IMG/VR virus record: IMGVR_UViG_3300020473_000025
Location: 16,293 to 80,292 of that record
Direction: 5' to 3' (one strand)
Source of the DNA: a virus
Length of the DNA: 64,000 bases
The notes under the pieces were generated by a model, which made no database searches, had not been told where the DNA came from, and was given only the letters and a program-made list of their open reading frames with translations. Shown one piece after another: positions 4,850 through 57,181 of this stretch (its first letter is position 1; each line of letters opens with the position of its first letter). The translations under genes were made by a program, and so were the position numbers.

Positions 4850-4852
4850 CAA

Positions 4853-8330: not shown

Positions 8331-8394
8331 GACCACGTGGCATCTAGCACGTGGTCTTATGCCGTCACGGCATAGAGTAGGCCCGAAGACCTAC
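8331..8394. terminator. Tandem hairpins between convergent genes
   Basis: The first stem GACCACGTG/CACGTGGTC (8331-8339 with 8348-8356) is followed by TATGCCGTCACGGCATA, itself a small palindrome, and then by a second stem GTAGG/CCTAC (8377-8394). The arrangement gives each strand a hairpin followed by TATGCC and fits termination from both sides. Confidence 0.7.
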
Positions 8395-14761: not shown

Positions 14762-16897
14762 ATGGAAAACCCATTTGTTCTCCCTACCCAAGAGTATGGT
14801 CGAGATTTGAATGTCCTGGAACGTTACTATCAGGATACCGCAAGATACCTAGCCTTAGAGACAGGTTGTTCACATGACGAGTGTTATCAGTGGGTTAAAG
14901 AAACTACCCACCCTTCAAGTGGTAAGTTACCTTTAAAAGATCCAAAGGTACTAAGCCTTAAACGAGATAAGCCAGGTGAGCGTGATAAGTGGGAAACTAC
15001 ATTCCTTGGCTACCTTCAAAAGGTAAACAACGAGAACTTAATCATCAGCCCTACACTAGCAGCATATAGACACCCCGACCAACACGAGTCTATCCTTGCT
15101 AAGTATATCCGTAAGAATGTAGATAAGCGTAATGCTGTTAAGAAAAAGAAATTCCAGTCTACGATGGCAGGTAATGACGCTGAGGCTGGCTTTTACGACA
15201 TCCTGCAATCTACATTTAAAATCAAGAACAACTCAGTGAGTGGTGGTCATGCATCAGCCTTTACACCGCTTTATAACAAATCAACCCATTCTACGTTGAC
15301 ATCTACCTGCCGTTCGGCTACCGGGTACGCCAACGCCAACAACGAACGCTTCTTATACGGTAACCGTCACTATTACGATGTGGATGTGGCAATCCAGAAC
15401 ATCATCTCAATAATCAACAATAGCGATTATAAGACAATAGCAGAAGCGGTAGAGAAATATAATCTACACATCCCTAGTGTAGAGGAAGTCTGTGAGACGA
15501 TTAAATATTCAACAGACCTTTACTGGCGCAACCTGCAGTGGTCTAGCCGTATCCACAGTCTGATATCTAAACTGTCTGATATGGAACGTGTAGCGTATAC
15601 TTACACGGGTAATTTCTACCATCTACGTGAATTAAACCCAGAGTTCACTAGAACGTTCCTAGATCGGTTTACTACGTGTTCAGACACCACGATAGACAAT
15701 CCGGAAACAGTCATCAGTGAAATGGATGGGGATCTTGAAGCGTATGTGGGTATCCTGCACGCTCACGACTTAAAGAATAAACCTATCTTTAAGATCAAAG
15801 AATCTGAACCTGAGACTTATGCACGCATTGCTAGTTCAGTTAACAATATCTTTGGCTTACTGCGAGAATATACAGTATTGTTTAAAGCGTTCTGGGTGAC
15901 CCTCAACCCGCCTGCATCGGTAGCGGTATTACCCGACGCTATACGTCGTGGTGTATTGGTGTCGGATACAGACTCTACTATCTTCACTGTTCAAGACTGG
16001 ACCATGTGGTATAAGAATGGGGTGGTTGACTTCGACGCTAAAACAACGAGCGTATGGGCGTTTGTTGTATACATCGCTCAGATGACTACCATGCACTTAC
16101 TCGCTCTGTTGTCATCTAACATGGGTGTGGCTAAACCTGACTTGTATAAGTTATCAATGAAGAACGAATACATGATGCCCGCGTTGTCATTGACAAGTCG
16201 TGCTAAACACTACGCCTACTACATTAGTGCGCAGGAAGGTAACGTCTATAAGAAGATGAAAACGGATATCAAGGGGGTTGAGCTTAAATCTACTAAAGCC
16301 CCTAAAGAAATCATTGAAAAACTACACAAGTACATCATGAAGCCGATGGACTGGACGCTGGAAGGTAAGAAAATCCCTATTAAAGAAATGATGCAAGAAG
16401 TTGCTGATCAAGAGCACGCTATCATTGACAGCCTTAATCAGGGTAAGATCGATTATCTAACCACCGCCGGTATTAAAGCGGCTGAATCGTACGCTAACCC
16501 ACAGGGATCTAATTACATCTATTACGACTTTTGGAATACTGTCTTTGGTCCTAAGTATGGTGAGGTGCCACCACCGCCGTATAGTACGGTAAAGGTATCG
16601 TTAAATGCTACCTCTAAGACAAAAGTAGCAGAGTGGATACGTAGTATCAAAGATGTCGAATTAGCAGAGCGTCTTGAAGACTGGATGGGTAAGAATAACA
16701 AGCTAACAGGGATAACGCAGTTCTTAATCCCCATGGATGTTATTAGTACCAAAGGGATGCCTGAGGAAATAATCCAATGTATGGATATACGGAAGATTGT
16801 GTTCACCACCATGGCACCATTCTATCTGGTGTTAGAGACGTATGGGGTGTATATGAAAGATAAGAACATCACTAAGCTTGTTAGCGATATCATGTAG
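14762..16897 (+). CDS. Family B DNA polymerase, C-terminal half (palm motifs B and C, thumb)
   Basis: Part of the phage replicase. The 711-residue product carries K-I-K-N-N-S-V-S-G-G at 153-162, a match to motif B of family B polymerases (Kx3NSxYG), and L-V-S-D-T-D-S-T at 399-406, motif C (YGDTDS) with the two catalytic aspartates D402 and D404. A K-N-E-Y-M-M segment at 467-472 corresponds to the KKRY region that grips the primer. The exonuclease domain and motif A are missing here and are found in a separate minus-strand gene at 60583-62520. Together the halves supply every conserved motif. Motif identification is strong; assembly of the two chains is inferred. Confidence 0.8.
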   Translation: MENPFVLPTQEYGRDLNVLERYYQDTARYLALETGCSHDECYQWVKETTHPSSGKLPLKDPKVLSLKRDKPGERDKWETTFLGYLQKVNNENLIISPTLAAYRHPDQHESILAKYIRKNVDKRNAVKKKKFQSTMAGNDAEAGFYDILQSTFKIKNNSVSGGHASAFTPLYNKSTHSTLTSTCRSATGYANANNERFLYGNRHYYDVDVAIQNIISIINNSDYKTIAEAVEKYNLHIPSVEEVCETIKYSTDLYWRNLQWSSRIHSLISKLSDMERVAYTYTGNFYHLRELNPEFTRTFLDRFTTCSDTTIDNPETVISEMDGDLEAYVGILHAHDLKNKPIFKIKESEPETYARIASSVNNIFGLLREYTVLFKAFWVTLNPPASVAVLPDAIRRGVLVSDTDSTIFTVQDWTMWYKNGVVDFDAKTTSVWAFVVYIAQMTTMHLLALLSSNMGVAKPDLYKLSMKNEYMMPALSLTSRAKHYAYYISAQEGNVYKKMKTDIKGVELKSTKAPKEIIEKLHKYIMKPMDWTLEGKKIPIKEMMQEVADQEHAIIDSLNQGKIDYLTTAGIKAAESYANPQGSNYIYYDFWNTVFGPKYGEVPPPPYSTVKVSLNATSKTKVAEWIRSIKDVELAERLEDWMGKNNKLTGITQFLIPMDVISTKGMPEEIIQCMDIRKIVFTTMAPFYLVLETYGVYMKDKNITKLVSDIM

Positions 16898-18664: not shown

Positions 18665-20533
18665 ATGGCTGTAAATAAAGATAACAAGTCTACTCCGTCT
18701 AACCCTGCTATGGCAGAAGCAATGAAAGAGTCAGGCGCGCAGCAAAGCCGTTCAACAAACCAAACCCAACCCAGTCGAGGAAGAAACGTGGAAGGTCCAA
18801 AATCCCTAGCCGGTCTTAATTCTTTATTCAGCAACCCAATGACGCGTAGCACTGCAGGCGAAGTCACTGGTGAGCTAACTCAAACGCTTCGTAAGATCCT
18901 ATCTTCAGAGCGCAACAGCGTACTTGAGAAAGTAACGATTGAACCTGTGGACGGCGATAGCCATTCACTAGCCCTTTCTGTAATTGTATTACAGTTCCCA
19001 TTCAACGAGCACGTTGCCTGCTATACCTACATTGTAGAAGGTTCTGGTGACGGTCTTGCAGATCGCGTTCCAACTATTGCCGGACAGCAAGTAAACATCA
19101 AGACTGTTCCTGGTGACGTATACGACGATAACATGTGGGAACAAGTTAACATGTATCTTCGCAGCAAGTACGGTAGTGAACGCAGCTTCATCGATGTTGG
19201 TGCTAACGTAATTCCACGTACAGTTACCGCTGACCATGAGAAAGAAATCCGCAGCCTGTTATACTTCGGTATCACTGCGTGTTACACTACTCTACTTAAA
19301 ATCAATGGCGATGCCAGCAACAGCATTAGCGTAGCTGATATCAACACCGGCGACGTACTAGCAGCGCAACTTCGCTACAATCCAGGCGACACACAAACGG
19401 CTGCTGGTCAAACTGTACGCTCAGATCTATCTATCGCACTACGCGGTATTATGCAGACAGGTGAAGCGGTATCTGCTAAGCAGACCATTCCACTAACCAC
19501 TGTTGATGGTTACATGGATCTAACTTACGTTCCACGTCAGCAACAACAAATGGCGTATGGTCAGCCTGTTGATCACCGTCAATACGTACCGCGTCTAGTA
19601 ATGACTAACGTATCTTCTGGTCTAAGCGTTAACACGCTAGAGCTTGAACTACTAGGTCTTTCTACTACGGTACTAGCAGCCCAGCACCACGCATGGGTTA
19701 AGTGCTTCAAGCCTGTATACGGTGCAAGCAAGAATGACATCCATGACATCGGTGCACTAGGCTTTGAAGTTGATTTCGCAAACAATGGCGAGTACGGTCG
19801 TATCTCTACTAAGAGCGATTCATTCTCAGACCAAAGTCTGTTTGAGCTAGTACAACGCAGCATGTACAACGAAGTACTGTTCTCTTGGGATATCCCTGAG
19901 ACAGGTGACCTAAGCTGGTTACAAGAAACGTTCCTAGCCGCAGCGGCTGGTAACAGCAAAGCAATTAACACTCTGTTCAATGCAGCAGATACGTTAACTG
20001 GTGGTGCGTTTACTCGTAACTACGACGGTGCTCCTCCTCTAATGAGTGAGATTACTCGTGTACATCTTGGTACTTACCTAGATGAAAACAATACTCTACG
20101 TGATCTACGTGATCTTGATTACCTAGCGATGCTAAACATCTACGGTGATAAAGACCTAGGTCTAGTTGAAGCATTTGGTAACACATACGACCAGACTGAT
20201 CGTCCTCAAGAACTACGTCTGGCAGAGCGTGCTAAAATCATCGAAGCTACACTAGGTGATACAGTAACCATCACTGGTTACGCACGTCGTGTTACATTCA
20301 ATCCTAAGTTCATTGAAGCGCTTGCTATGGCTTGTGCAGAAGCTGGACTTAAGATCCGCCCTGAGGGTATCTACGGTAACGACATGGGTGCCATTCGTGG
20401 TAACACGTCAGCTGTTGGTATGGGTATTGGTCAAAACGCCGGTGGTGCTGTCTTCCAACAAGGTGGTGCTAACTGGGGCGGTTCTGGTATGGGTTACGGT
20501 GCTCGTAACTCTGGTGGACTGTGGAACCGCTAA
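18665..20533 (+). CDS. chmA: Probable chimallin, major nuclear-shell protein
   Basis: Candidate for the protein that builds the lattice enclosing replicating phage DNA (phiKZ gp54, 201phi2-1 gp105). The 622-residue length fits. A polar, flexible N-terminal segment (about 1-60, Ser/Gln/Asn-rich) precedes a large globular part, and a Gly/Asn-rich tail (about 575-622) could be the C-terminal segment that ties subunits together. It lies immediately before the RNAP beta'-N gene, as gp54 lies before gp55 in phiKZ. Codon choice is strikingly uniform (GGT, CGT, CTA, AAC), the sign of a very highly expressed gene, and this also produces several empty antisense frames. Identity rests mainly on synteny, size and expression signs. 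Confidence 0.72.
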   Translation: MAVNKDNKSTPSNPAMAEAMKESGAQQSRSTNQTQPSRGRNVEGPKSLAGLNSLFSNPMTRSTAGEVTGELTQTLRKILSSERNSVLEKVTIEPVDGDSHSLALSVIVLQFPFNEHVACYTYIVEGSGDGLADRVPTIAGQQVNIKTVPGDVYDDNMWEQVNMYLRSKYGSERSFIDVGANVIPRTVTADHEKEIRSLLYFGITACYTTLLKINGDASNSISVADINTGDVLAAQLRYNPGDTQTAAGQTVRSDLSIALRGIMQTGEAVSAKQTIPLTTVDGYMDLTYVPRQQQQMAYGQPVDHRQYVPRLVMTNVSSGLSVNTLELELLGLSTTVLAAQHHAWVKCFKPVYGASKNDIHDIGALGFEVDFANNGEYGRISTKSDSFSDQSLFELVQRSMYNEVLFSWDIPETGDLSWLQETFLAAAAGNSKAINTLFNAADTLTGGAFTRNYDGAPPLMSEITRVHLGTYLDENNTLRDLRDLDYLAMLNIYGDKDLGLVEAFGNTYDQTDRPQELRLAERAKIIEATLGDTVTITGYARRVTFNPKFIEALAMACAEAGLKIRPEGIYGNDMGAIRGNTSAVGMGIGQNAGGAVFQQGGANWGGSGMGYGARNSGGLWNR

Positions 20534-52725: not shown

Positions 52726-53292
52726 ATGGCCAAGTCCCCAAAGAAACAACGTAAAAATAAAGCACCAGCGAAGTCTACTGTAAAGAAAACGGACGCATGG
52801 GCTGAGTTAAGATCCTTAAATAGCGCAGCATCAACTATGCTGGCAGCGGCTACTCAGGTATCTCAATTATTTAAAAATCCAGATGCGCTACGTAAGGTAC
52901 AGGATAAGCAAAAGCTTAACGCACTAGGTCGCGTTCTGCTTAATGACCTTACTAACTTCAATACACGTCTTACTGCTATTCGCGATAGACATATTAGCCG
53001 CGAAGCTCCAAAAGATGAGATGGAGGCAAACTTCATTGCAATTGACATCGGTCAAGATTACCAGCAGTGGATGGAAGATTATAACGCCGTTGTACCTATT
53101 ACCACGGCACAGATCTTAGAACTCACCGAAGGGCGTTCGGTAGAGGAAGTCGAAGAAAACGCTAATCAGGCTCGTGCTGAGATTGAGAAGCAGCAAAAAC
53201 AACCAGCGGTCAAACAACGTCGCTTAGGTACTACAGCTACGCCTAAGAAAACGTTAGACCTGATGGCGATGGCTAAAGGAGGTAGAAAGTAA
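52726..53292 (+). CDS. Basic-tailed helical virion-type protein (188 aa)
   Basis: The start is the ATG at 52726 (site CAGGA); the frame extends upstream into the divergent gene without support. Lys-rich N-terminus (M-A-K-S-P-K-K-Q-R-K-N-K) then helices, and a basic C-terminus (K-Q-R-R-L-G). It overlaps the next gene by one base. It starts the structural block that follows the virion RNAP gene in phiKZ. Function unknown. Confidence 0.5.
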   Translation: MAKSPKKQRKNKAPAKSTVKKTDAWAELRSLNSAASTMLAAATQVSQLFKNPDALRKVQDKQKLNALGRVLLNDLTNFNTRLTAIRDRHISREAPKDEMEANFIAIDIGQDYQQWMEDYNAVVPITTAQILELTEGRSVEEVEENANQARAEIEKQQKQPAVKQRRLGTTATPKKTLDLMAMAKGGRK

Positions 53293-54848
53293 TGAGTCAA
53301 GATGAACAAGATCCTCGTGATGTGGATCACGGCGATCAGCCAAGAACACGAGTAAGTGATCACTACGATCAACATGAGTTAGGTCAAGCTGAAGAACCAG
53401 AAGAAACAATAAAGCCTACTTTTACACAAACAGGCGATTACAGTACACCGTTAGATGAATCTAAGAACACCGATGTCCCATTAGCGCTTCCTAGCGCCAA
53501 TATGTCTAACATGTTAGATGTTTTATCCGATATGGCAAAAGTGTCCTTGTCATCTGATTCGGCGCAACTATGGAGCGATACGTTAGAGCTTAGTTTAAGT
53601 GAAGACATCATGCCTTACTCTAAGATGTTCGCTAAACCTTTCTTTGAAGAGAGATTAGCGTCTGAGGGTAGTGACTTTAGACAATACGTTGATAGTGACT
53701 CTGGTCGTTTGTCTGCGGTTAAGCCTAAGATTGGTAAAACAAATCCAGGCGGCACTATCAGTGGTGAAGCGGCGTTATTGAAAGTTAACGCCATGTTGAC
53801 CATGGGTACTTCAGTTCAGATACCTTTATGGCACTCTGGTATGTGGGTGAGTATCAAAGCTCCCTCAGAAGGCGCTTTAATCGAGTTAGACGAACGTATT
53901 GCTCTTGAGAAAGGAAAGCTAGGTAGAAATACACGCGGCACCGCCTTTAGCCACTCAGGCGTTTATATACGCGGTCACCTATTTAACTTTATTATCGATC
54001 ACATTTACGATTGTAATGTTAAAGATTGGAATGAGCAGATGTTACGTGAGAATATCTTGGTAACAGATTACTCACTGCTAATCTGGGGGCTAAGTTGTGC
54101 GGTCTTCCCTAAAGGTTATCCGTTTACTCGTGCATGTATGTCGGATGTTAGCGAATGTCAACATGTTGTTAAAGAAACGCTAAATATCCCTAAGTTGCTG
54201 TGGACGGATAACAGTGTGCTTAGTGAGAAGCAACGTACTCATATGGCGCAACGTAGCAGTAAGGTAACGCTGGAACGTGTTAAGTGGTACCAGGAAGAGT
54301 TTATACATCCTAATGCAAAAGCACTCCGTGTGAATGCAGCGGTGGGTATGGATCTTCGTGTGCCTACTATGCTTGAGACTATCTCATCAGGGGTGCGTTG
54401 GGCGGAAGACATCGAACGTATGACTGAAGAAGGGTTGGGTAAAGACATCAAATATGAGAAACGCGCTCGCTATATGCAGGAACAAAGTAAGTTGATCATG
54501 CTACGTCGTTACTCGCACTGGGTAGGTCGTTTTGTGATAGGTGAGGGCGATGATGCTGCTGTTGTAGCGGGCAACGATCGTGAAACTATTGATAAGCTTT
54601 GTGAACAACTGTCTGCAGATACGGATACTATCAAGGCATTTAGAAACCACATGCAAACTTTCATTGACAACGCAGCATTTAGCATTGTAGGTATTCCTAC
54701 CTATACATGTCCATCGTGTGGCGGTGAGCAAAAAGATGCAATGGGTCGTTCACCTTATCTAATTCCACTTGAGATTGAACAGCTTTTTATTACCCTCGTA
54801 GCGTTCAAACGGAGCAAGAGGATAAACGAGCGCAGCGAGGTAGATTAA
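53292..54848 (+). CDS. Structural or baseplate-assembly protein with C-terminal zinc ribbon (518 aa)
   Basis: Acidic disordered N-terminus (1-60), large helical core, and a C-terminal P-T-Y-T-C-P-S-C-G-G-E with a single C-x-x-C near 478-486, followed by L-I-P-L-E-I-E-Q-L-F-I-T. The CxxC followed by a hydrophobic end recalls T4 gp26/gp51-type baseplate hub assembly proteins, which are short; the long N-terminal part is peculiar to this phage type. Stop codon at 54846; the next gene's frame remains open back to about 54770, so a frameshifted longer form is possible. Confidence 0.5.
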   Translation: MSQDEQDPRDVDHGDQPRTRVSDHYDQHELGQAEEPEETIKPTFTQTGDYSTPLDESKNTDVPLALPSANMSNMLDVLSDMAKVSLSSDSAQLWSDTLELSLSEDIMPYSKMFAKPFFEERLASEGSDFRQYVDSDSGRLSAVKPKIGKTNPGGTISGEAALLKVNAMLTMGTSVQIPLWHSGMWVSIKAPSEGALIELDERIALEKGKLGRNTRGTAFSHSGVYIRGHLFNFIIDHIYDCNVKDWNEQMLRENILVTDYSLLIWGLSCAVFPKGYPFTRACMSDVSECQHVVKETLNIPKLLWTDNSVLSEKQRTHMAQRSSKVTLERVKWYQEEFIHPNAKALRVNAAVGMDLRVPTMLETISSGVRWAEDIERMTEEGLGKDIKYEKRARYMQEQSKLIMLRRYSHWVGRFVIGEGDDAAVVAGNDRETIDKLCEQLSADTDTIKAFRNHMQTFIDNAAFSIVGIPTYTCPSCGGEQKDAMGRSPYLIPLEIEQLFITLVAFKRSKRINERSEVD

Positions 54849-54907: not shown

Positions 54908-55324
54908 ATGATGACGTTACCTGCCTTAGATAGTATCGGGGCGCAGATAGCGTTAACAGAGGCTTACGACCACACCTACGGTATTTTCAACTATGATGGC
55001 ATCGATTATAATCCTTTAAGTATTGTAGCCATGCATCCGGTAGAGGATACCCTTAAAGTGGGGTTGAAACCTTTCATGATTAAACGTTTTAGGATGTATG
55101 ACATTCACAAACGTTATGGCTTGTCGTTAACGGAGCTTCTTGCCTTACCTCGTGATACGGTTACTGATATATTTGATGATGCTGCTAAAGCCATTGCTGA
55201 AGAAGAAGAGCAGATGCAGGAGATTCAAAATGAAATGCGTGAAGCTATTAACGAGCAGAAGGCAGCTAAGCGTAAAACCATGCGAGCTCAGAAACAAAAG
55301 AAAGTAAAGAAGGCTGGGAAGTAA
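54908..55324 (+). CDS. Basic coiled-coil-tailed protein, possible frameshift partner (138 aa)
   Basis: First ATG of the frame is at 54908 without a clear ribosome site. The frame is open and coding-like back into the end of the 518-residue gene (E-D-K-R-A-Q-R-G-R-L-I-S-P-R-F-G-L-E-R-E), which is hard to explain unless it is read by frameshift. The product has an alpha/beta body and a C-terminal Glu/Gln then Lys/Arg-rich coil (E-E-E-E-Q-M-Q-E... K-R-K-T-M). Ends at 55324 in a hairpin. Confidence 0.5.
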   Translation: MMTLPALDSIGAQIALTEAYDHTYGIFNYDGIDYNPLSIVAMHPVEDTLKVGLKPFMIKRFRMYDIHKRYGLSLTELLALPRDTVTDIFDDAAKAIAEEEEQMQEIQNEMREAINEQKAAKRKTMRAQKQKKVKKAGK

Positions 55325-55341
55325 TTCCTGGCCTTATGCCG
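55312..55341 (+). terminator. Hairpin overlapping the stop, with TATGCCGT signature
   Basis: GGCTGGGAA at 55312-55320 pairs, with two G-T pairs, with TTCCTGGCC at 55325-55333; TATGCCGT follows. Confidence 0.6.
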
Positions 55342-55401
55342 TTTCGTCTATAATTACGCCGTAGTGTAACTATATAGAGGTAAAGGTGGGATAATAAAAC
55401 A

Positions 55402-55854
55402 ATGCTATTAGAATTTGTACATTCAGATTTATTTCAATTAGAAGCAGACACCATAGTCTGCCCTGTGAACTGTGACGGCATCATGGGGAATGGATTAGCG
55501 TTAGCGTTTAAATGCAAATACCCAGATGATCTGTTTAATCAATACCATTATTTGTGTGGAGAACGTAAACTTAACCCGGGACATAGTTGGCTTTATCGAC
55601 ATCCATATAAGAATGTATTATGTTTCGCAACAAAAGACAGATGGCGTAATGACTCTAAGCTAGAATGGATATCTAGAGGACTTTATGCCTGTTTGGATAA
55701 CCTCCCACGCTTAGGCGTTAAACACATTGGCTTTCCTCTATTAGGATGTGGTAAGGGTAATTTAAACAAACATGAAGTGATCGAGCTATTCAGAGAGGTC
55801 TTTGATCCGGATATAGCAGCAGGGTTCGATTTAAAAGTCACGGTATGTTTATGA
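55402..55854 (+). CDS. DarG/TARG1-like macrodomain (150 aa)
   Basis: Binds or removes ADP-ribose. V-N-C-D-G-I-M-G-N-G-L-A-L-A-F-K at 22-37 is the ADP-ribose loop of DarG/TARG1-type macrodomains. F-A-T-K-D-R-W-R-N-D-S-K-L at 75-87 has the family's catalytic lysine (K78) and the W-R-x-x-S-K-L signature. G-F-P-L-L-G-C-G-K-G-N-L near 118-129 is the second loop. DarG reverses DarT modification of DNA, so an orphan phage copy could protect phage DNA from DarTG defence, or recycle ADP-ribose. It sits between structural genes. Domain is clear; role is inferred. Confidence 0.85.
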   Translation: MLLEFVHSDLFQLEADTIVCPVNCDGIMGNGLALAFKCKYPDDLFNQYHYLCGERKLNPGHSWLYRHPYKNVLCFATKDRWRNDSKLEWISRGLYACLDNLPRLGVKHIGFPLLGCGKGNLNKHEVIELFREVFDPDIAAGFDLKVTVCL

Positions 55855-55882: not shown

Positions 55883-57181
55883 GTGTCTACTTTAAACCCA
55901 GCCGTAGCAGCAAGGATGGTAGAGATCGTCAAGTTAGATACTATTATGGTCTCTGTGGAGCGTCTAACGTTAGACGTTGAGGGTTTCTTTAAAACCATTA
56001 CCGATCACTTTGATCGACTTGTCCTATTAGATAGAACGGCTACTGCTTTAGAAGAAAACAATGAAACAACGGTATCGGCAGAACATGTAGAGTATTTTCG
56101 CTCACTAGGTATGGCTGAAGAGGTCGTGAGTGTTGAAAGCATACGTAGTCAGGTTAAGTCGATCTGGAAAAGTATTGTTAAATACATTGTAGAGGGGATG
56201 AAGAAAGTAAAGCTATGGGCTAAGAAAATAGCATTGGCTATACCTAACCTACGTAAGCTGATTGAAGCTGTCAGTAAATTAGACCGTGGTTACCATTACA
56301 ACGAAGTCGTATCTTTACGTGATGAATTAAACTATCTAGGTGGGGATATAATCACCCGTGATCGATTGTTAAAGGACTTCAACAACACCGTTGTTATTAT
56401 GCGTGATTGTTTTAAAGTGGACTTCCCATCTGTACTTAGTAGCGTTGAGAATACTTCTGATATCCTTAAGAACATTCCCATTGTTTTCAATAAAGGTATT
56501 GGCGAGTATGGTGACGCGCAGTATAGTGAATTAAAAGACATGATTAAATCGCTATGGACTACGTGCCATATCGCGCCTGATGTAGGTGAGTCTAACCCAC
56601 CTAATGGAATCTGGCATGAGTCGCTTAAAATACGTGGCATCACCAGCGATAGTCATTTAACTTTCTCACCTAGAACGGTACCCGTAGTAGGGGGACGTTA
56701 TCCTTTAATGCGTTATCCGCGATTTAATAAGGAACAAGCCCATTCTGTAATATTGAAAAACCACCCTACGGTGATCAGTTATTCACGCCTAGGCTCGGCA
56801 CACCTGTCTAACACACATGTAGATGTCTTTAGTAAAACAGCGAATACCTCGGGTGAGGCCGTAGAGATAGATGCGCTTACTGACGATCAAGTAACTGAGG
56901 TGTGTAGAAACTGCCTAGCGATACTGGATTCATTTGAAATCTACTACGAGCAGTTTGATGAGATTGAGAAATGTAAAGAAGATCTCATTAAAACAGGTAA
57001 TAAAGCGGTAGGTATCATTACTGATGAAGAAGATGAAACGCGTCAATCTGTTTCTGAGTTCATTAGGAACGTAGTGAGATTTCAGGCCGTGAGATTAGAC
57101 AAACCGTATGTATCACTTATAGGTCATGGTGTAAGATCCATGTATGCTCTAATGTCATACTGTCAAAAATCATTAGCCTAG
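55883..57181 (+). CDS. Inner-body-like paralog (432 aa)
   Basis: GTG start with GAGGAG upstream. The basic segment S-I-W-K-S-I-V-K-Y-I-V-E-G-M-K-K-V-K-L-W-A-K-K near 92-117 corresponds to those of the genes at 1, 451 and 62569. The C-terminal third matches the 62569 protein in order of elements. The N-terminal leader holds V-S-A-E-H at about 65-69, a possible prohead-protease site (Ser-X-Glu). By analogy with the gp93 family of phiKZ it is probably a packaged inner-body protein that accompanies DNA. Function inferred. Confidence 0.6.
   Translation: MSTLNPAVAARMVEIVKLDTIMVSVERLTLDVEGFFKTITDHFDRLVLLDRTATALEENNETTVSAEHVEYFRSLGMAEEVVSVESIRSQVKSIWKSIVKYIVEGMKKVKLWAKKIALAIPNLRKLIEAVSKLDRGYHYNEVVSLRDELNYLGGDIITRDRLLKDFNNTVVIMRDCFKVDFPSVLSSVENTSDILKNIPIVFNKGIGEYGDAQYSELKDMIKSLWTTCHIAPDVGESNPPNGIWHESLKIRGITSDSHLTFSPRTVPVVGGRYPLMRYPRFNKEQAHSVILKNHPTVISYSRLGSAHLSNTHVDVFSKTANTSGEAVEIDALTDDQVTEVCRNCLAILDSFEIYYEQFDEIEKCKEDLIKTGNKAVGIITDEEDETRQSVSEFIRNVVRFQAVRLDKPYVSLIGHGVRSMYALMSYCQKSLA

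Follow-up and report, generated by a model that had tools for sequence, protein, structure and literature searches.

A standalone DarG-class macrodomain in a nucleus-forming phage as a candidate counter to host DarT

DarTG is widespread as a defence against phages. The phage counters to it named in the literature we searched are AdfA (T4 and RB69) and AdfB (ICP1), neither of which is an eraser of ADP-ribose; AdfB is a 77-aa protein that likely binds DarT directly. The DarG macrodomain alone is sufficient as an antitoxin against DarT (PMC5179494). SCO6735 of Streptomyces and human TARG1, each a single-domain hydrolase, take ADP-ribose off thymine and give rescue from DarT, as reported in cells for the homologue SCO6735 (PMC9411070). 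That giant phages often carry lone macrodomains is established: Iyer et al. found macrodomains in 56% of jumbo phages and took small molecules to be their usual substrate. They also mentioned the ADP-ribosylation of DNA by toxin-antitoxin systems as something these domains might act on (PMC9503650), so the anti-DarT idea has already been published as a conjecture. In a structural survey, viral matches to DarG were confined to the macrodomain. No phage macrodomain countering DarT was reported in the literature searched (preprints and many subscription papers lay outside the search). Among nucleus-forming phages, phiKZ gp104, PhiPA3 gp108, Goslar gp83 and the macro proteins of FLC9, Eowyn and agricanviruses are standalone DarG-class domains, and they share 26–37% identity with the protein described here.

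That protein, of 150 aa, is encoded at 55402..55854 (+ strand, ATG start) in a stretch of 64,000 nucleotides, hereafter the window, that covers positions 16,293 to 80,292 of the IMG/VR record IMGVR_UViG_3300020473_000025, itself an 80 kb fragment. A homologue of the nuclear shell protein ChmA at 18665..20533 (+) indicates that the phage is nucleus-forming. The gene was recognized from the list of open reading frames, family matches and an AlphaFold2 model. Pfam Macro matches the product above its cut-off (3.9e-11), while the PADLOC DarG model (8.8e-35) and the NCBIfam DarG model (1e-32; 113.8 bits, below the full-length cut-off of 250) match it in the macrodomain part only. The best PDB sequence matches are the DarG macrodomains 5m3i (5e-17) and 5m31 (1e-16), and a family profile built from 19 relatives also places these two (8e-48 and 5e-47) ahead of TARG1 (1e-17) and Poa1p (5e-7); MacroD proteins are not detected by the family profile. 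The AlphaFold2 model (pLDDT 96, with 86 relatives in the alignment) has DarG or DarTG macrodomains at ranks 1–4 among PDB folds, at TM 0.89–0.90, with 28–31% identity to those of Thermus aquaticus (5m3e/5m31) and Mycobacterium tuberculosis (5m3i). TARG1 comes next at TM 0.76–0.81, with Poa1p at 0.77 and SCO6735 at 0.70.

In a tree of 175 macrodomains, a branch with 100/100 support separates the DarGs and the phage domains from MacroD, and the deep phage branches are left without resolution. TARG1 was placed within the phage clade, which we dismissed as a long-branch effect (branch length 5.68). Sequence, tree and predicted fold support assignment of the window macrodomain to the DarG class and not to TARG1 or MacroD. 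The sequence-only reading had called it DarG/TARG1-type and had proposed a phylogeny as the check: the tree set it apart from MacroD, and of the two names only DarG is retained, with G119 at the place of the TARG1 residue Asp125.

The ADP-ribose loops and the catalytic-lysine motif that had been picked out from the sequence alone were recovered on alignment to DarG. The first loop, P21-V-N23-C-D-G-I-M-G-N30-G-L-A-L-A35, is encoded at 55462..55506 (+; residue roles from PMC5179494), the motif F75-A-T-K78-D-R-W81-R-N-D-S-K-L87 at 55624..55662 (+; K78 codon at 55633-55635) and the second loop, P112-L-L-G115-C-G117-K-G119-N-L121, at 55735..55764 (+). Aligned to the T. aquaticus protein (TaqDarG), K78 corresponds to the catalytic K80, W81 to W83, N23 to N22 and T77 to T79. 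The equivalents of TaqDarG N22, T79, K80, W83, G117 and G121 are all kept, as are D9 (N8), L10, G115, G117 and G119 (G121) of the window protein. In TaqDarG, K80A abolishes activity (PMC5179494) and K29E reduces it. The window protein thus shares with DarG macrodomains the catalytic lysine, the thymine-stacking tryptophan, the ADP-ribose loops and the lack of Asp125. Of the Lys84/Asp125 catalytic pair of TARG1 it keeps the lysine and has glycine for the aspartate, as DarG does; TARG1, unlike the window protein, has the full pair and no tryptophan, and SCO6735 differs in having Gln85 for the lysine. Phage macrodomains gathered mostly by tblastn have the lysine in 14 of 14 cases and the tryptophan in 12 of 14; the invariance of TK..W and VN..G is partly by construction, because relatives were partly gathered with patterns containing those motifs.

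Two pocket residues usual in DarG are changed in the window protein, T20 to P21 and K29 to N30, and the protein is weakly acidic (net charge -1, pI 6.6; the DarG median is +3). At the site of T20, a threonine that touches ADP-ribose in DarG, proline (window codon 55462-55464) was found in 40 of 68 viral and phage domains without DarT against 2 of 87 DarT-linked ones. We rejected it as an orphan-versus-DarG difference, since at most four independent differing pairs are left once kinship is counted, which is not significant. The substitution may mark a changed substrate, or kinship only.

The claim that this phage has the eraser without the toxin was borne out: a whole-record search found no DarT (PF14487) in the 80 kb record, in the sibling contigs or in any of 39 phage records. 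On the same search we rejected a toxin gene sited at another place in the phage genome: no DarT was found in any record covered, and the DarT model had positive controls. No SIR2 writer was found in the lineage of the window phage or its siblings either. The C-terminal region by which DarGs of about 230–475 aa bind and block DarT is missing from the window protein, which ends at 150 aa. As judged from its sequence and neighbours, the protein is not DarG proper, having neither the DarT-binding C-terminus nor an adjoining darT gene.

For counts across loci, DarT was detected with a model built from annotated DarTs, with positive controls; Pfam agreed on the five cases tested. What is new here is the contrast that these counts show between bacterial and viral loci. 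The nearest bacterial homologues, which also occur on plasmids, lie no more than 1 kb from DarT at 66 of 80 loci, where they are mostly long proteins of 216–475 aa (one has 172), whereas homologues on viral contigs have DarT within 1 kb in 19 of 80 loci and lack it there in the other 61. In 57 of these 61 DarT-less loci the encoded protein has 144–182 aa, and the window gene fits this set of standalone phage macrodomains, with a single domain of about 150 aa and no adjoining writer. The label 'orphan' is therefore apt for the window phage but denotes nothing special, this being how DarG-class macrodomains are usually found in viral contigs. On the best tree of the 175 macrodomains, lone and toxin-linked forms switch at least 14 times, so the lone phage domains probably arose repeatedly, either out of toxin-linked ones or in parallel with them. 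Whole DarTG modules are present in a minority of viral-classed contigs (L118, L119, L127-L129, L133, L138, L145, L147 and L157-L159, among others).

The macro gene is followed by a gene for a phiKZ-type internal head protein (55883..57181, +; Pfam phiKZ_IP, 1.3e-11). It is preceded by a member of PHROG 12109 (54908..55324, +) and, one gene further upstream, by a member of PHROG 4585, homologous to phiKZ gp077, that serves as a synteny marker (53292..54848, +). A position between virion genes had been described, which is correct for the downstream side; the two genes upstream fall in families with no assigned function. Orthologues are 93–94% identical in four IMG/VR contigs and 71% and 61% identical in two more, and all six have the gene between the same neighbours. 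Against a 94% identical orthologue dN/dS is about 0.06, and by this measure the gene is under purifying selection. In the window, the siblings and FLC9 the gene just before the macro gene is the PHROG 12109 member, and a short gene stands there in Goslar. Burkholderia phage FLC9, Xanthomonas phage LucasX and Escherichia coli phage Goslar share the neighbourhood of the window, with the macrodomain downstream of a phiKZ-gp077-like gene and a short gene (in LucasX one additional gene intervenes), whereas in phiKZ, PhiPA3 and the agricanviruses the neighbours are different and the macrodomain comes after the gp101-gp102 module or its likely counterpart. Macrodomain records equal ChmA records in number for phages of Pseudomonas (69), Serratia (17) and Klebsiella (9). 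This agreement, which is one of totals and not record by record, suggests that nearly all ChmA-carrying phages of these hosts carry a macrodomain.

Macrodomain erasers are labelled 'ADP-ribosyltransferase' or 'phosphatase' in public phage records, for example gp264 of Streptomyces phage Quantum (L017). In Proteus phage 10 (L012:3001-3831) the macrodomain is fused to an extra C-terminal part of about 130 aa, and that of Salmonella phage SA002 is likewise annotated as a fusion.

From sequence and model, we give about an even chance to the explanation that the lone macrodomain is a counter-defence eraser of the thymine-ADP-ribose made by a putative host DarT of the DarTG2 type, and thus a counter to DarTG as AdfA and AdfB are. 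For this role we infer the substrate, the timing and the benefit: a host DarT would ADP-ribosylate thymines in exposed phage ssDNA during infection, and the phage macrodomain would strip the ADP-ribose from them, so that replication and transcription could continue. It would act catalytically on the product, without the toxin-binding C-terminal part of DarG. Given that the DarG macrodomain alone and SCO6735 suffice as antitoxins, a lone domain can do this job. Shielding of phage DNA that leaves the nucleus shell, which the sequence-only reading had suggested, would be a further conceivable effect. The acidic charge of the window protein does not favour DNA binding, and this, with the loss of K29, speaks against a DNA substrate. 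If standalone DarG-class macrodomains do erase DarT damage, many giant phages would already be catalytically immune to DarT2-type defence, and because relatives occur in the model phages phiKZ and Goslar, the question is directly testable there.

It is unlikely, in our view, that the protein instead degrades soluble ADP-ribose derivatives (ADP-ribose-1''-phosphate, O-acetyl-ADP-ribose or cyclic ADP-ribose signals) arising from host NAD-based defences or RNA repair. Iyer et al. propose substrates of this sort for phage macrodomains in general (PMC9503650), and database entries frequently call the gene a phosphatase or an Appr-1-p processing enzyme. However, DarG is closest in both fold and sequence, with Poa1p far below, and KptA, which generates ADP-ribose-1''-phosphate, was not found in the window lineage (1 of 15 records was positive), nor was SIR2. 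The clean-up of ADP-ribose-1''-phosphate in RNA repair was rejected on the absence of KptA. A strong gene for KptA (tRNA 2'-phosphotransferase) is present in the agricanvirus Erwinia phage Ea35-70 (L024, 68384-68890), which makes a role of the macrodomain in RNA repair conceivable there, unlike in the window lineage.

Nucleus-forming phages keep their DNA enclosed while their mRNA is exposed in the cytoplasm, and this counts for an eraser of nucleic-acid ADP-ribose whose true substrate is RNA, such as uracil-ADP-ribose on cytoplasmic phage mRNA, directed against an RNA-modifying host toxin. The loss of K29 and the low charge of the window protein could mean a changed substrate of this kind. 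TaqDarG, SCO6735 and TARG1 all hydrolyse uracil-ADP-ribose in ssRNA, which also counts against a DNA-only reading of the window protein; TaqDarG, however, is much weaker than TARG1 on uracil-ADP-ribose but comparable to it on thymine-ADP-ribose, and the adenine modification of mRNA by CmdT is described as irreversible (PMC13036486). With no uracil-modifying bacterial toxin found in the literature searched, we consider an RNA substrate unlikely. Finally, a regulatory or housekeeping infection factor, either reversing a modification by the phage's own ART or binding ADP-ribose without catalysis, would fit the wide occurrence of the macrodomain in nucleus-forming phages and the reduction of ChmA protein on knock-down of phiKZ gp104, in a host not reported to pose a DarTG challenge, but is improbable given that this knock-down brought no substantial change in PFU or CFU (PMC12571901), that sibling phages have no DarT or SIR2 (the two ART families searched) and that the catalytic residues are retained under purifying selection.

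The anti-DarT explanation may extend to a second enzyme. Each of the four sibling contigs long enough to cover 30 kb past the macro gene has a NADAR gene, 29.5–31 kb downstream of it (G001:74009-74437, G002:73103-73531, G004:124997-125425 and G018:168880-169311; L028-L030), and in G004 a thymidylate synthase gene follows the NADAR. The contigs G000, G003 and G017 end before this position, and the contig of the window is among those that stop short of it. FLC9 and Eowyn also carry NADARs; none turned up in phiKZ, PhiPA3, Goslar or the five other complete phages searched. Like the window macrodomain, phage NADARs (T4 gp30.3 type) are erasers of base-linked ADP-ribose without a toxin, but they have an unrelated fold and are specific for guanine: NADARs remove guanine-linked ADP-ribose, DarG the thymine-linked form (PMC11125620, PMC11543638). 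The NADAR of the sibling phages could likewise clear guanine-ADP-ribose made by a DarTG1-type system. We put forward only tentatively, and with some doubt, that the lineage carries a two-enzyme kit which would undo both known DarT modifications of DNA, thymine by the macrodomain and guanine by NADAR, without either toxin, as a general base-de-ADP-ribosylation counter-defence in jumbo phages. One phage NADAR put to the test showed activity in vitro and yet gave cells no protection from DarT1 (PMC11125620), which leaves the pairing a lead and not a proof.

Upstream of the macro gene, a hairpin of 11 bp with a 4-nt loop lies across the stop codon of the preceding gene (55310..55335, +; -17.7 kcal/mol, z -3.3) and is directly followed by a TATGCCGT motif (55335..55342, +), identified by its over-representation and its recurrence after hairpins. 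Two relatives (L115 and L116) have a hairpin at the same place with a different stem sequence and the same TATGCCGT motif. A standard scan for sigma-70 promoters and terminators gave nothing near the macro gene, the hairpin having come from folding. Of the leader after a terminator that the sequence-only reading had described, the upstream hairpin is thus upheld by folding and by its recurrence in relatives, and the standard terminator and promoter scan gave it no backing. The window holds 13 TATGCCGT sites against 2.2 expected, a 6-fold excess, and 12 of the 13 stand directly 3' of a strong hairpin, for the most part where a gene ends, with no need of a U-run. Further sites are found, for example, at 8358, 14682, 17340, 25109, 28516, 29212 and 58195, and on the minus strand at 4852, 8367, 38615 and 46716. 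The motif is also in excess, against a reversed-motif control, in the sibling contigs, FLC9, PhiPA3 and Proteus phage 10. Several sites have no same-strand gene start within 1 kb, which makes a termination signal likelier than a promoter, and the hairpin with TATGCCGT is probably a gene-end signal of the window phage. The late start motif known from phiKZ is TATG, and TATGCCGT may possibly act as a late start as well.
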